Part shown: piece after piece, positions 11,074 through 16,550 of the stretch
Layout of the letters: every line of letters starts with the position of its first letter
Numbering within the stretch: position 1 is the first letter of the stretch
Assembly (NCBI GenBank): GCA_031271785.1
Contig: JAISUZ010000106.1
Span: forward strand, 1 to 36,877
DNA length: 36,877 nt
Direction: 5' to 3'
Origin: Fibrobacter sp.
GTDB lineage: Bacteria; Fibrobacterota; Fibrobacteria; Fibrobacterales; Fibrobacteraceae
Notes under the pieces: generated by a model
Told to the model about the DNA's origin: nothing
Seen by the model: only the letters and a program-made list of their open reading frames with translations
Database searches by the model: none
Position numbers and translations under genes: made by a program

Positions 11074-12159
11074 ATGAATAAAAAAATCTTAATTGGCGTT
11101 ATAACGGTATTTTCACTTCTCTTCACGGCTTGTTCCGGCGGAGAGGCGAAAGAGCAGAAAAAAAGCGGCGGCGGAAGTACCGCCTCGCGCGTTGTGCGCG
11201 TGGAAGGTTATGTCGCTCAACAGAGGGTTTTGGATAACCGTTACCAGGTGAGCGCCGCCCTCCTCCCGATGGACGATGTGGAACTGAAAGCGGAAACCTC
11301 CGGGAGGCTTGTGCAGCTCCCTGTGAAGGACGGCGCTTCGGTTTCCAAAGGCGCTTTGATCGCCAAAATCGACGATTCCGAGTTAAAAGCGCTCCTCGCA
11401 CAAGCGAACGCGCAGCTCGAATTGGAAAAACAGAAAGAGGCGCGGACAAGAACGCTTCACGAAAAAGACGGGGCTACTACTGCGGAACTTGAAAGTGCGG
11501 TGGCGAGTTTGCATGCTCAGGAAGCTCAGGTGGCGCAGATTCAAGCGCAGATGCGCAAAACGGAAATTCGTGCTCCGTTTTCGGGGAGGCTCGGTTTCCT
11601 GAGCGTTTCCGAAGGCGAATGGATGACAAGCGGCGCTTCGGTTTCCACGCTCTCTTCCGTGCAGGAACTCAAAGTGGAATTTTCTTTACCGCAGCGTTAT
11701 GCCTCCATGGTTGCCGCAGGGGATTCTTTGAAAGTCATTGACGATGAACGCGGGCTTACGACCGCCGGAAAGATTCAGTTTCTGGAACCGACCCTCACTT
11801 CTTCGAGCCGCAGCCGGAAAATCCGGGCGATGATTCGCAATCCGAAAGAAGAATGGATGGCGGGGAGCTTTGTAAAGGCGGAACTTTCGCTTCGGGGCTC
11901 GAAAGAACGCGGTATGGCGATTCCTACCGAGGCGATTACGCTCGATGACAAAGGGCCTTATGTTTTTGTTTATAAAGAGGGAAAAGCGGTGCAAACCCGG
12001 GTGCAAACAGGGCTCCGCACACCGATTTCGATTGTGGTGATCAATGGTCTCGCCGAGAACGACACGGTGATTATTTCCGGTTTAATGAGCATGCGTAACG
12101 GGACTTCCGTAGAAATCCGCGACCTTCGTAACCAGATGAATTACGAGGTGCAGGAATGA
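11074..12159 (+). CDS. RND efflux periplasmic adaptor (membrane fusion lipoprotein)
   Basis: A 361-residue HlyD/AcrA-type adaptor linking the inner-membrane pump to the outer-membrane channel. The N-terminus is a lipoprotein signal with lipobox FTAC (C20). Biotinyl-lipoyl halves flank an alpha-helical hairpin (about 115-165, rich in Ala/Gln/Glu), followed by beta-barrel and membrane-proximal domains (FVKAELSLRG, PTEAITLDDKGPYVFVY). The ATG at 11074 has AGGA 5 nt upstream; an upstream extension of the frame to 10996 lies inside polA. Its stop overlaps the pump start by 4 bases (ATGA), so adaptor and pump are coupled. Confidence 0.92.
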   Translation: MNKKILIGVITVFSLLFTACSGGEAKEQKKSGGGSTASRVVRVEGYVAQQRVLDNRYQVSAALLPMDDVELKAETSGRLVQLPVKDGASVSKGALIAKIDDSELKALLAQANAQLELEKQKEARTRTLHEKDGATTAELESAVASLHAQEAQVAQIQAQMRKTEIRAPFSGRLGFLSVSEGEWMTSGASVSTLSSVQELKVEFSLPQRYASMVAAGDSLKVIDDERGLTTAGKIQFLEPTLTSSSRSRKIRAMIRNPKEEWMAGSFVKAELSLRGSKERGMAIPTEAITLDDKGPYVFVYKEGKAVQTRVQTGLRTPISIVVINGLAENDTVIISGLMSMRNGTSVEIRDLRNQMNYEVQE

Positions 12160-15100
12160 GCCTTTCACAGGTTTCCATTCGCCGCCCCGTTTTGATGACG
12201 GTGCTTGCCATCGGTACGATGGTGCTTGGTTTTTTCGGCGCGATGAATCTCGGGATTCGCAAATTCCCGAACGTTGATTCTCCGGTAATTACCGTAAGGA
12301 CTTCTTACAGCGGCGCGAACGCGGCGGTGGTGGAGTCGGAAGTGACGGAGATTTTGGAAGAATCCATCAACAGTGCCTCCGGTATTAAATCGCTCGTTTC
12401 CACAAGTTCCGACGGTTCTTCGACGATTCGTGTGGAGTTTGAAGTAGGCGCGGATTTGGAAGCGGCGGCGAACGATATTCGCGACCGCGTTTCCCGTGTG
12501 CAGCGCCGGCTCCCCGATGCGGTGGACCCTCCGACGGTTTTTAAATCCGATTCCGATTCCGACCCGATTTTGATGGTGAGCCTTATGTCCGATTCCCGTG
12601 ACGCCATGGAAGTTTCGGAAATTGCAAGAAACCTTGTGAAAGAACGCCTGCAAACGATTTCGGGCGTTTCGGAAGTGACGCTTTGGGGTGAAAAACAGCC
12701 GGTAGTGCGCCTTTGGCTGGATCCGGTGCGCATGCAGTCTCTCGGGGTGACTGCTTCCGAAATTTCGGCGGCTCTTGTCCGGGAAAATCAGGAACTCCCT
12801 GCGGGAAAAATCGAAGGGGCGACAACGGACCTTTCTATTCGCGCGCTCGGGCGTTTGGACGAACTTCCTTTGTTTTCGGGGGTGGCGATCAGAACCGCTC
12901 CGGACGGCACGGTGATCCGTTTAAGCGATGTGGCGAACATTCATTATGAACCTAAGGATCCGCGGACAGGTTTTAAACGTAACGGAAAAAATGTGATTGC
13001 CGTGGCAATTATTGCGCAGCCCGGCGCGAATCACGTTGATATTGCCGACCAATTTTATAAACGGATTGAAGAAATTCGCCGCGATTTACCGAGCGACGTA
13101 CAAATTATCCGCGGGATGGATTCTTCGGTTTCTATCCGGGCTTCCATCCGGGAAGTGATTGAGACGATTTTCATTTCGTTTGTTCTCGTGATTCTCACTA
13201 TTTTCATTTTCCTCCGCGAAGGGCGCTCCACTTTAATTCCGATGGTGGTGATTCCGGTTTCGCTGGTTGGGTGTTTCTTTATCCTTTATTTCTTCGGGTT
13301 TTCCATTAACGTTTTGACGCTGCTTGCCATGGTGCTTGCGATTGGGCTTGTGGTGGATGACGCGATTGTGATTGTGGAAAATATTTATCAGAAAATCGAA
13401 GAGGGGATGACGCCGAAGCAAGCGGCGGTCGCCGGAACCAATGAGATTTTCTTTGCCGTAATCGCGACTTCGATGGTGCTTATGGCGGTGTTTTTGCCGA
13501 TGCTCGTGCTCGGCGGTGTGACGGGGCTGCTTTTCCGCGAGTTTGTCGCGGTGATGATCGGAACGGTATTTCTTTCTACGGTGTCGGCGCTTACGCTTTC
13601 GCCGATGCTTTGTTCCAAATTTCTTCGCATGCAAAACAAAGGCCGCTTTTACATGATGACCGAGCCGTTTTTCGAGTGGCTGAACCGGATGTACGACAAA
13701 AGTTTGGGGATGTTTTTAAGAGTCCGCTGGATGGTGTTTGTGTTGATTGCCGCTCTCGGCGGTGTGACTTACTTTTGCTTTACTCATCTTTCGAGTGAAA
13801 TGGCGCCGATGGAAGACAGCGGTATGTTTTTCGCGCGCGTGCAGTTTCCGGAAGGTACCGGACTTTCCCGGACGAGAAGTTCGGTGGAAAACTTTGTCGA
13901 TGTGGTGCGGGAAAATTTGGATTCTTCCGAGTACGAAGAAATTCAAGCGGGAGCGAATGGCGCCGGAAATGCGATGGTTCGCTTTACATTGAACGAGGAT
14001 CCGAATGCGCGCCGTTCTCAATCGGCGATTGCGCGGGATGTGCAAACGCTCGCTTACGAATTTCCGGATATGCGTGTGATGGTGATTGAACCTCAAACGG
14101 TAAGTACGGGCCGCGGCGGGATGCCGATACAGTTTGTGCTGCAAGCGCCCGACATTGATATTTTAAGAGAACTGCTCCCCGAATTTTTAGCCGAAGCGGA
14201 TAAGAGCCCGTTTTTTACGGTGGTGAACTCGAACCTTACATTTACCAAACCCGAACTTCATCTGAATATTCTCCGCGATAAAGCGCGGGCGGAAGGAGTT
14301 TCGGTAGAAAATATTGCAACGGCGATTCAGCTCGGCATGGGTGATCAGACTTACGGCGAATTTTATTTGGAAGGCCGGCAGTACGATATTATCGGAAGCG
14401 TCGGTTACGAATACCGGGACAGGCCTGCTGCACTTTCGGCTTTGACCGTGCGGAATGCGAAAGGCGAGATGCTTTCTCTGGATCATTTTGTGGAGTATCA
14501 TGAAGTATCGGCTTCTCCTTCGCGCCCGCGTTACAACCGCTTTAATGCGGCTACGGTTTCTGCGGGGCTTACGGAAGGAAAAACTATCGGCGACGGGCTC
14601 GAAGAAATGCGCCGTATTGCAGACCGGGTGCTTAAAAAATATCCGAACGTCAGTACCGAACTTGCCGGCGCTACCAAAGAATATGTGGAGAGTTCCTCCG
14701 GGCTTTATGTCACGTTCTTGCTCGCGCTCGCTTTTATTTTCCTGATTCTCGCGGGGCAGTTTGAAAGTTTCCGCGCGCCGTTTGTCACGCTGTTCACAGT
14801 ACCTCTCGCCCTTTCCGGCGCGCTCGCTTCGCTTTATTTATTCGGGCAAACGCTCAATATTTTCAGTGAGATCGCGCTGATTCTTTTACTTGGGCTTGTG
14901 ACGAAAAACGGGATTCTTATTGTAGAGTTTGCGAACCAAATTGCGCGTAATACCGGGTGCTCTGCTTTGGAAGCGGCGCGCGAGTCGGCGAAGCGGCGTT
15001 TCCGCCCGATTCTCATGACGAGTTTTTCCACTGTGGGCGGCGCGATTCCCTTGATTGTGATGGGGGCGCCGAGCCGTGTGGCGATGGGTGTTGCGATTGT

Positions 15101-16550
15101 GGGCGGGCTTTCGTTTGCCGCACTGATGACTCTTTATGTGGTGCCGGCCGCTTACTCTTACTTTGCCGGAAAAACCGAAAAGATTTCCACCGATGCAACG
15201 AAAATGGCGGGTTTCCTTCTTCCGGTTTTGGGCGCGGGGCTCAGTATTTTGCTGTTTGCCCCGACTTCCGCTTCGGCAGATACGCTTTCGCCCGACCAGG
15301 CTGTGAAAATTGCTCTTGAAAAAAAGCATTCCGTTTTGATTGCGCGCGAACAGCTCAAGAGTGCTGAGGCCATGAATTCGCTCGGGGCAAACGGAATGCT
15401 CCCTACGCTCGATTTATCGCTTTCCCGTTATTATAATTACGGCGATTCCTATTCGAAAACACAAGCCGGAGTGAAAACCGATATTGACGATGATTTGGAA
15501 CACACCGATCAACTTCAGGTGGCTTTGAATTATACGCTTTTCAACGGATTTCGTTCGTGGAACTCTTATCAATTAAGTTCTTCCAATAAAAATCTTGCAG
15601 AAATCGAATTGCGGGATGAAATTGAAAATACGGCGAGCAGTGTGCTGAACACTTATCTCTCGGCGGTATCGGCGCGGGAATCGTTCCGGGTTGCCGAAGA
15701 AAATGTAAAGTTCTCCGCCGAGCGCCGTGATTTGACGAATGAAAAATATAATGTGGGCGCGGTGACGCGGCTCGATGCGCTTTCTTCACAAATGGATTAC
15801 ACTACGGACAGCGCGGCGAGTCTCACGGCGGAAACCGCGCTCCGTTCGGCGTTGCGTATGCTCGATCAGGAACTCGGCGGCGGTGTGATTCCTGTTGAAG
15901 AATATACGCTTCTCGATTCGGTTTGGGTGAACCGGGATCCGCCTTGGAAAACGCCCGAGGGAAAACAAACGGTTTTAAAAAATGCTCTCGAAAGAAGCGC
16001 CGCCATTCAAATGGCGGCAGCAGAGCGTAAGACAGCCTCTCTGAAACGAAAATCGGCGAGTTCTTCTCTTTATCCGCAGCTTAATTTACACGGGTCCTGG
16101 AATTACAGCGGGAGTGCCGCAGATAAAGGGAACCCGGCCGATGCGAACAGCAAATACTTCCGCGTGGGGGCGGCCGCTTCCTGGAATTTATTTAACGGAC
16201 TTTCGGACCGGGCGACGATTGAAACGGCAAAAATTGAGGAACGTACGGCGACTCTGAAAGAGGAAGAAGCGCGCCTTTCGGTAGAAACCGCTGTTTCCGA
16301 TGCGCTGGATAAACACCTCCGGGCGCTCGACGCGCTTCAAGTTGCCGAAGGGAATCTCTCTCTCGCCGATGAAACGCTCGCTATCGCCGAAGAACAGCTT
16401 CGCGCCGGGAGCATTACCGCCTTTGAATTCCGGGAACTGCAAAACCGCCGCACGGCAGCTTACGAAGCTCTGATTCTTTCAAGAATTCAGGCGAATTCCG
16501 CCGAAATTATGGTGAAATTATTGAGCGGAGAGATTCTCCGCCTCGACTAA
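12156..16550 (+). CDS. RND efflux pump fused to a TolC-like outer-membrane channel
   Basis: A 1464-residue protein that is two proteins in one frame. Residues 1-1016 are a complete HAE-type RND permease with 12 helices and two periplasmic loops; the proton-relay acids are D401/D402 in GLVVDDAIVIVEN, and K917 lies in VTKNGILIVEF. Residues 1017-1041 form a textbook Sec signal peptide: a lysine before it, a hydrophobic core (GFLLPVLGAGLSILLFAP) and an ASA|DT cleavage site after A1041. Residues 1042-1464 are a TolC-type outer-membrane factor with two OEP repeats (DQAVKIALEKKHS; FNGFRSWNSYQ; WNLFNGLSDRATIETAK). RND permeases end in the cytoplasm, so the internal signal could be inserted and cleaved to free the channel. 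The stop overlaps a convergent gene by 33 bases. Substrate is unknown. Confidence 0.9.
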   Translation: MSLSQVSIRRPVLMTVLAIGTMVLGFFGAMNLGIRKFPNVDSPVITVRTSYSGANAAVVESEVTEILEESINSASGIKSLVSTSSDGSSTIRVEFEVGADLEAAANDIRDRVSRVQRRLPDAVDPPTVFKSDSDSDPILMVSLMSDSRDAMEVSEIARNLVKERLQTISGVSEVTLWGEKQPVVRLWLDPVRMQSLGVTASEISAALVRENQELPAGKIEGATTDLSIRALGRLDELPLFSGVAIRTAPDGTVIRLSDVANIHYEPKDPRTGFKRNGKNVIAVAIIAQPGANHVDIADQFYKRIEEIRRDLPSDVQIIRGMDSSVSIRASIREVIETIFISFVLVILTIFIFLREGRSTLIPMVVIPVSLVGCFFILYFFGFSINVLTLLAMVLAIGLVVDDAIVIVENIYQKIEEGMTPKQAAVAGTNEIFFAVIATSMVLMAVFLPMLVLGGVTGLLFREFVAVMIGTVFLSTVSALTLSPMLCSKFLRMQNKGRFYMMTEPFFEWLNRMYDKSLGMFLRVRWMVFVLIAALGGVTYFCFTHLSSEMAPMEDSGMFFARVQFPEGTGLSRTRSSVENFVDVVRENLDSSEYEEIQAGANGAGNAMVRFTLNEDPNARRSQSAIARDVQTLAYEFPDMRVMVIEPQTVSTGRGGMPIQFVLQAPDIDILRELLPEFLAEADKSPFFTVVNSNLTFTKPELHLNILRDKARAEGVSVENIATAIQLGMGDQTYGEFYLEGRQYDIIGSVGYEYRDRPAALSALTVRNAKGEMLSLDHFVEYHEVSASPSRPRYNRFNAATVSAGLTEGKTIGDGLEEMRRIADRVLKKYPNVSTELAGATKEYVESSSGLYVTFLLALAFIFLILAGQFESFRAPFVTLFTVPLALSGALASLYLFGQTLNIFSEIALILLLGLVTKNGILIVEFANQIARNTGCSALEAARESAKRRFRPILMTSFSTVGGAIPLIVMGAPSRVAMGVAIVGGLSFAALMTLYVVPAAYSYFAGKTEKISTDATKMAGFLLPVLGAGLSILLFAPTSASADTLSPDQAVKIALEKKHSVLIAREQLKSAEAMNSLGANGMLPTLDLSLSRYYNYGDSYSKTQAGVKTDIDDDLEHTDQLQVALNYTLFNGFRSWNSYQLSSSNKNLAEIELRDEIENTASSVLNTYLSAVSARESFRVAEENVKFSAERRDLTNEKYNVGAVTRLDALSSQMDYTTDSAASLTAETALRSALRMLDQELGGGVIPVEEYTLLDSVWVNRDPPWKTPEGKQTVLKNALERSAAIQMAAAERKTASLKRKSASSSLYPQLNLHGSWNYSGSAADKGNPADANSKYFRVGAAASWNLFNGLSDRATIETAKIEERTATLKEEEARLSVETAVSDALDKHLRALDALQVAEGNLSLADETLAIAEEQLRAGSITAFEFRELQNRRTAAYEALILSRIQANSAEIMVKLLSGEILRLD

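Follow-up and report, generated by a model that had tools for sequence, protein, structure and literature searches.

A Fibrobacter RND efflux permease encoded in one frame with a TolC-type channel and a predicted internal signal peptide

The RND efflux pumps AcrAB-TolC and MexAB-OprM combine a permease, whose C-terminus lies in the cytoplasm, with an adaptor and a channel, and contain permease and channel subunits in a 3:3 ratio. In these systems, permease and channel are encoded by separate genes. A different architecture is found in FbcH of Bradyrhizobium, a cytochrome b / c1 polyprotein in which the frame of a multi-pass membrane protein continues through an internal signal peptide into an exported subunit, and which is cut by signal peptidase I. 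We take FbcH to be the closest precedent for the Fibrobacter locus described here, which encodes homologues of the pump permease, adaptor and channel, but carries the permease and channel in a single reading frame with an internal signal peptide.

The locus resides in a 36,877-nucleotide stretch of Fibrobacter sp. DNA (the window; contig JAISUZ010000106.1), and its features are as follows.

11074..12159, + strand: adaptor (membrane fusion) lipoprotein, 361 aa (RND_mfp TIGR01730, translation)
12156..15200, + strand: RND permease moiety, residues 1-1015, HAE type (profile matches, D401/D402/K917)
15201..15278, + strand: predicted internal signal peptide, K1016-A1041, KMAGFLLPVLGAGLSILLFAPTSASA (core and AxA-like site conserved in 12 of 12)
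15276..15281, + strand: predicted signal peptidase I site, A1041|D1042 (prediction)
15279..16550, + strand: outer-membrane channel moiety of TolC/OprM type, residues 1042-1464 and stop codon (PF02321, structural matches)

An earlier note on this DNA had described a frame running unbroken from an AcrB-like permease into a complete TolC-like protein, and our analyses bear this out. Translation of positions 12156-16550 (+) yields 1464 codons free of stops. Pfam model PF00873 (ACR_tran) matches residues 4-1003 with 864 bits (model positions 2-1020 of 1021), and PF02321 (OEP) matches two stretches, the best beginning at residue 1046, with 154 bits in all. The adaptor, whose start and lipobox (LFTAC) were taken from the translation, scores 241 bits against NCBIfam model TIGR01730 (cut-off 94.9), and its stop shares four bases (ATGA) with the start of the fusion gene. 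At the gene level this is a tripartite RND efflux system, in that an adaptor is encoded together with permease and channel. A signal peptidase I gene is present in the same genome. At least four further, stand-alone channel genes are also present, and the fused channel therefore need not serve general export.

On its profile scores, the permease half is an HAE-type (AcrB/MexB-type) RND protein. It scores 967.6 bits against the multidrug model NF033617 versus 312.8 bits against the CusA/CzcA model TIGR00914 (NCBIfam), the latter value lying below the cut-off of 701.45 for CusA/CzcA membership; the NF033617 cut-off of 1250 likewise exceeds the score obtained, and an exact NCBI subfamily is therefore not claimed. 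Relatives of known structure are MexB, CmeB and AcrB. Residues D401, D402 and K917 are invariant in 11 relatives, and occupy the places of the AcrB proton-relay residues in TM4 (D401/D402) and TM10 (K917), with the transmembrane segments assigned by analogy to AcrB.

The channel half is a complete TolC-type outer membrane factor, whose relatives of known structure are OprJ, OprM and TolC. A model of residues 1042-1464 (mean pLDDT 76, with strand regions of low confidence) follows the TolC order of helix-helix-strand-strand-helix-helix, twice, and matches the folds of TOprJ1, TolC, CmeC and OprM (E about 1e-14). In this model the first helix starts at mature residue 5, approximately four residues past the predicted cleavage site.

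Among 60 relatives searched, the fusion is open from end to end in 10 other genomes (62-69% full-length identity) and is open up to the contig end in an eleventh (G013). The carriers include the isolate Fibrobacter intestinalis ATCC 43854 (G009; L126, NZ_FUWU01000009.1) and a single-contig genome (G016). The source is a draft assembly of 112 contigs, in which two genes might be joined by an assembly or sequencing artefact, but the identical frame layout in 11 further genomes, including the isolate and the single-contig representative, leaves this explanation a negligible chance. An assembly error, a missing stop and a frameshift are all ruled out by the open frame in the relatives; the earlier note had named a stop or frameshift at the junction as grounds for doubt. 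It had also raised the prospect that homologues would always occur as two genes. The fusion in 11 other genomes speaks against this, although not all orthologues are fused, with more than 50 channel-less permease orthologues encountered in Fibrobacteraceae. Several genomes, fused and channel-less ones among them, have all or part of the gene order polA - adaptor - permease(-channel) - dprA - mazG. A metallo-beta-lactamase-fold gene (PF12706; 16518-17693, - strand) runs towards the fusion gene, with a 33-base overlap at the end of the latter, and sits between the fusion and dprA in the window, a place where it was not seen in the relatives.

The K1016 codon begins at nucleotide 15201, and the ASA|D cut point falls between 15276-15278 and 15279, exactly where a signal peptide with an ASA|DT site had been proposed. 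The features of a signal peptidase I substrate are present: a positive n-region, a hydrophobic core, and small residues at -3 and -1. The homologue search and junction comparison suggested with that proposal recovered the same architecture. A hydrophobic core followed by [AVSTIG]xA is found at 12 of 12 Fibrobacteraceae junctions, and strict AxA at five of the 12, as compared with 3% for strict AxA after other hydrophobic cores in the same permeases; the site test uses a heuristic matrix, by which some sites are mislocated. Core hydropathy in the family is about 2.3-3.1. The linkers that separate permease from core differ widely between genera, whereas the core and AxA-like site are kept. Given the cytoplasmic end of RND permeases, the signal would be oriented to export the channel, in agreement with the earlier argument.

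An alternative source of the channel is internal initiation, for example at the ATG at 15204, with the read-through fusion being incidental. The source genome and several relatives do have an ATG where the signal segment begins (M1017). However, nothing equivalent to the ATG at 15204 is present in G009, G013 or G027: the signal segment of G009 and of G027 has no in-frame ATG where it begins, and in G013 there is none ahead of the core. The signal segment of one Kapaibacterium fusion (L157) and several Bacteroidota junctions (see below) likewise lack an in-frame ATG, and no ribosome-binding motif was seen by eye upstream of 15204. Moreover, if read-through were dispensable, one would expect drift to place a stop between the two halves, yet all 12 frames are open. 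Internal initiation as the conserved main route is ruled out by the non-conserved start codon, and we regard it as very improbable that most of the channel is made in this way.

Fusions with a comparable arrangement were also encountered in other phyla. The earlier note was correct that metal-type RND-TolC fusions exist in some Bacteroidota, and CusA-type fusions proved to be common there. One Lewinella genome carries two, and such fusions are frequent among its relatives. At least 80% of a CusA-type fusion was found in one place in 43 plasmid records, and in all nine plasmid records that were inspected the fusion is annotated as a single CusA/CzcA protein, with an adaptor gene next in order. 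A Bacteroidales genome (L155, G060) has an RND fusion of another kind, in which a 1584-codon frame joins an RND permease to about 500 residues that open with more hydrophobic segments and are unlike a TolC channel.

An HAE-type fusion, which the earlier note had considered worth checking, is confirmed for Fibrobacter, but it also occurs beyond this genome and phylum. Scanning named genomes revealed a 1452-aa HAE-type protein of the same architecture in a Kapaibacterium (L152). About ten relatives carry it full-length or nearly so, whereas others have two genes, some of them overlapping. The Kapaibacterium protein resembles the Fibrobacter fusion in that one frame encodes an HAE permease, a retained signal peptide and a channel, but the respective halves are only 46% and 26% identical and the junction sequence differs. 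Because unfused orthologues with overlapping genes exist in Kapaibacteria, this fusion is likely to be of separate origin. The junctions of Kapaibacteria fusions resemble the N-termini of their unfused orthologues. In three unfused representatives (L168-L170) the permease stop and the start codon of the channel share bases (ATGCGTGA in L168), and this arrangement is possibly a stage before fusion. Second RND paralogues in two Kapaibacteria genomes (G078:C41:37070-40216 and G081:C10:12224-15370) have open frames of 1516-1520 codons and may be further fusions. A frame of 24,521 codons (L235, L234; at G071:C9) includes a masked run of N and was set aside as a probable artefact.

The Bacteroidota fusions offer a comparative view of cleavage. 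Most signal peptidase I products of Bacteroidetes start with Gln, the average share among predicted substrates being 71%, and cyclised N-terminal Gln is backed by mass spectrometry (PMC5837995). Since this 'Q-rule' marks mature N-termini produced by signal peptidase I, Gln is expected after the internal segment if the segment is cut. A signal peptidase I-like site followed by Gln was found within 20 residues of the core in 28 of 29 CusA-type fusions. The corresponding control values were 4.9% for other hydrophobic cores and 9.6% for random windows. With a site finder blind to position +1, Gln occupies that position in 17 of the 29. Plasmid-borne fusions of named strains, checked after the hypothesis had been formed, gave Gln in 9/9, the exact Gln being ambiguous in two. 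The same comparison of signal peptidase I-like sites in Kapaibacteria fusions gave 9/11. The Q-rule evidence comes from other groups, Fibrobacteraceae not following the rule, and the case for the Fibrobacter fusion protein rests on its AxA-like site and orientation.

In each of the groups, a hydrophobic core and an AxA-like site persist at the junction amid diverging surroundings. The simplest reading of these patterns is selection for cleavage at the internal site. This reading has a weakness, as a recent fusion that had simply kept its signal peptide would give a similar picture, but the 20 residues before the Gln are only 16% identical among the 29 CusA-type fusions, and this low identity disfavours recent retention. 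The proposal of a polyprotein cut by signal peptidase thus gains comparative support from AxA-like sites in 12/12 Fibrobacteraceae and Gln in 28/29 and 9/9 Bacteroidota, and cleavage itself is strongly indicated by sequence comparison. The segment is hydrophobic enough (core about 2.3-3.1) to serve instead as a 13th transmembrane helix of an intact fusion, with the channel domain lying in the periplasm or bridging the membranes in one chain. An uncut helix would not be expected to keep an AxA-like site in 12/12 or, in Bacteroidota, a Gln at +1, however, and the stretch of about four residues between site and helix would be too short to span the periplasm, judging from known pump dimensions. 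With so short a distance in the model, a channel left uncut would have little prospect of reaching the outer membrane. We therefore consider an intact fusion improbable.

It is highly probable, from the sequence comparisons above, that the product of the gene is a pump polyprotein, which signal peptidase I cuts into a permease and a channel. The ribosome would make a 12-helix permease with a cytoplasmic C-terminus, followed by a short cytoplasmic linker. The internal signal peptide would then re-engage the Sec translocon in an N-in/C-out orientation and carry the channel to the periplasm, where signal peptidase I would cut after A1041. The released channel would trimerise and enter the outer membrane, and the permease would remain in the inner membrane, retaining what is left of the signal as an additional helix. 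Together with the adaptor lipoprotein encoded upstream, the two products would form a tripartite pump. Translated from one message, permease and channel would be supplied 1:1, in keeping with the 3:3 ratio of the known pumps.

The channel half has not been kept by all Fibrobacteraceae. It is absent in Fibrobacter succinogenes relatives and some others, and in many close relatives it has been lost outright rather than being present as a second gene. The idea that channel-less Fibrobacter hold the same channel elsewhere was rejected, as no close channel homologue was found in their genomes, where the best matches are only about 20-30% identical. In a permease-only tree, fused and channel-less proteins are intermixed, and a single clade of all fused proteins is ruled out (p-AU 1.7e-92), such that secondary loss or transfer is needed. 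One channel-less permease (G019) is nested in an otherwise fused clade with support 100/100. The DNA past its permease stop (L128) aligns with the channel start of its sister G004 with a score of 50 (shuffle mean 23.6; 0/500 shuffles reach 50), reading AHLENSKLLFSEELAQMAF*KN versus AQDSKLLMPTEAVQMALSKN in G004. The 110 bases after this stop are a decayed remnant of the channel gene behind a junction stop, a natural loss of the second half. The permease of the outgroup (f2) has no tail and no adjoining channel gene.

On the basis of the tree scatter and the position and relic of G019, the fusion appears to be ancestral or old in Fibrobacteraceae, and repeated losses of the channel half appear to have taken place, the F. 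succinogenes group being one case. Transfer of fused alleles between lineages is less likely. These repeated losses form a natural series on when a pump needs its own channel. In channel-less permeases (L014-L024 and most of L083-L149), the last residues are nearly invariantly DASKMA, or sometimes DASKMT, whereas the preceding linker varies and the codons differ. It is odd that several channel-less permeases share this end point. The same residues also precede the internal signal peptide in several fused proteins, and the tail may be functional in its own right.

We think it likely that these proteins represent a widespread, so far undescribed class of trans-envelope pump, in which signal peptidase I divides a polyprotein into inner- and outer-membrane subunits in fixed ratio, and that this class spans the HAE type in Fibrobacteraceae and Kapaibacteria as well as the metal type across Bacteroidota. 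The open-access full text searched yielded no account of RND-channel fusions, their processing or their internal signal peptides; such absence is weak evidence of novelty. If the class is real, one gene product supplies subunits to two different membranes, and the permease:channel ratio is fixed by translation, not by separate expression. In addition, many database 'CusA/CzcA permease' proteins would have a hidden outer-membrane half.

The Bacteroidota CusA/CzcA fusions (about 1440-1470 aa; for example WP_025603792.1 and WP_013768944.1) share with the Fibrobacter protein a permease, an internal signal peptide, a TolC-type channel and an adjoining adaptor gene. They differ in permease type, with the Bacteroidota CusA fusion scoring 1213 bits against TIGR00914 (cut-off 701) and the Fibrobacter fusion only 313, and in the residue at +1 after the site, which is Gln in the CusA-type fusions and Asp in Fibrobacter. 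FbcH differs in the destination of its products: both of its parts reside at the inner membrane in a respiratory complex, whereas the second part of the Fibrobacter fusion must reach the outer membrane.
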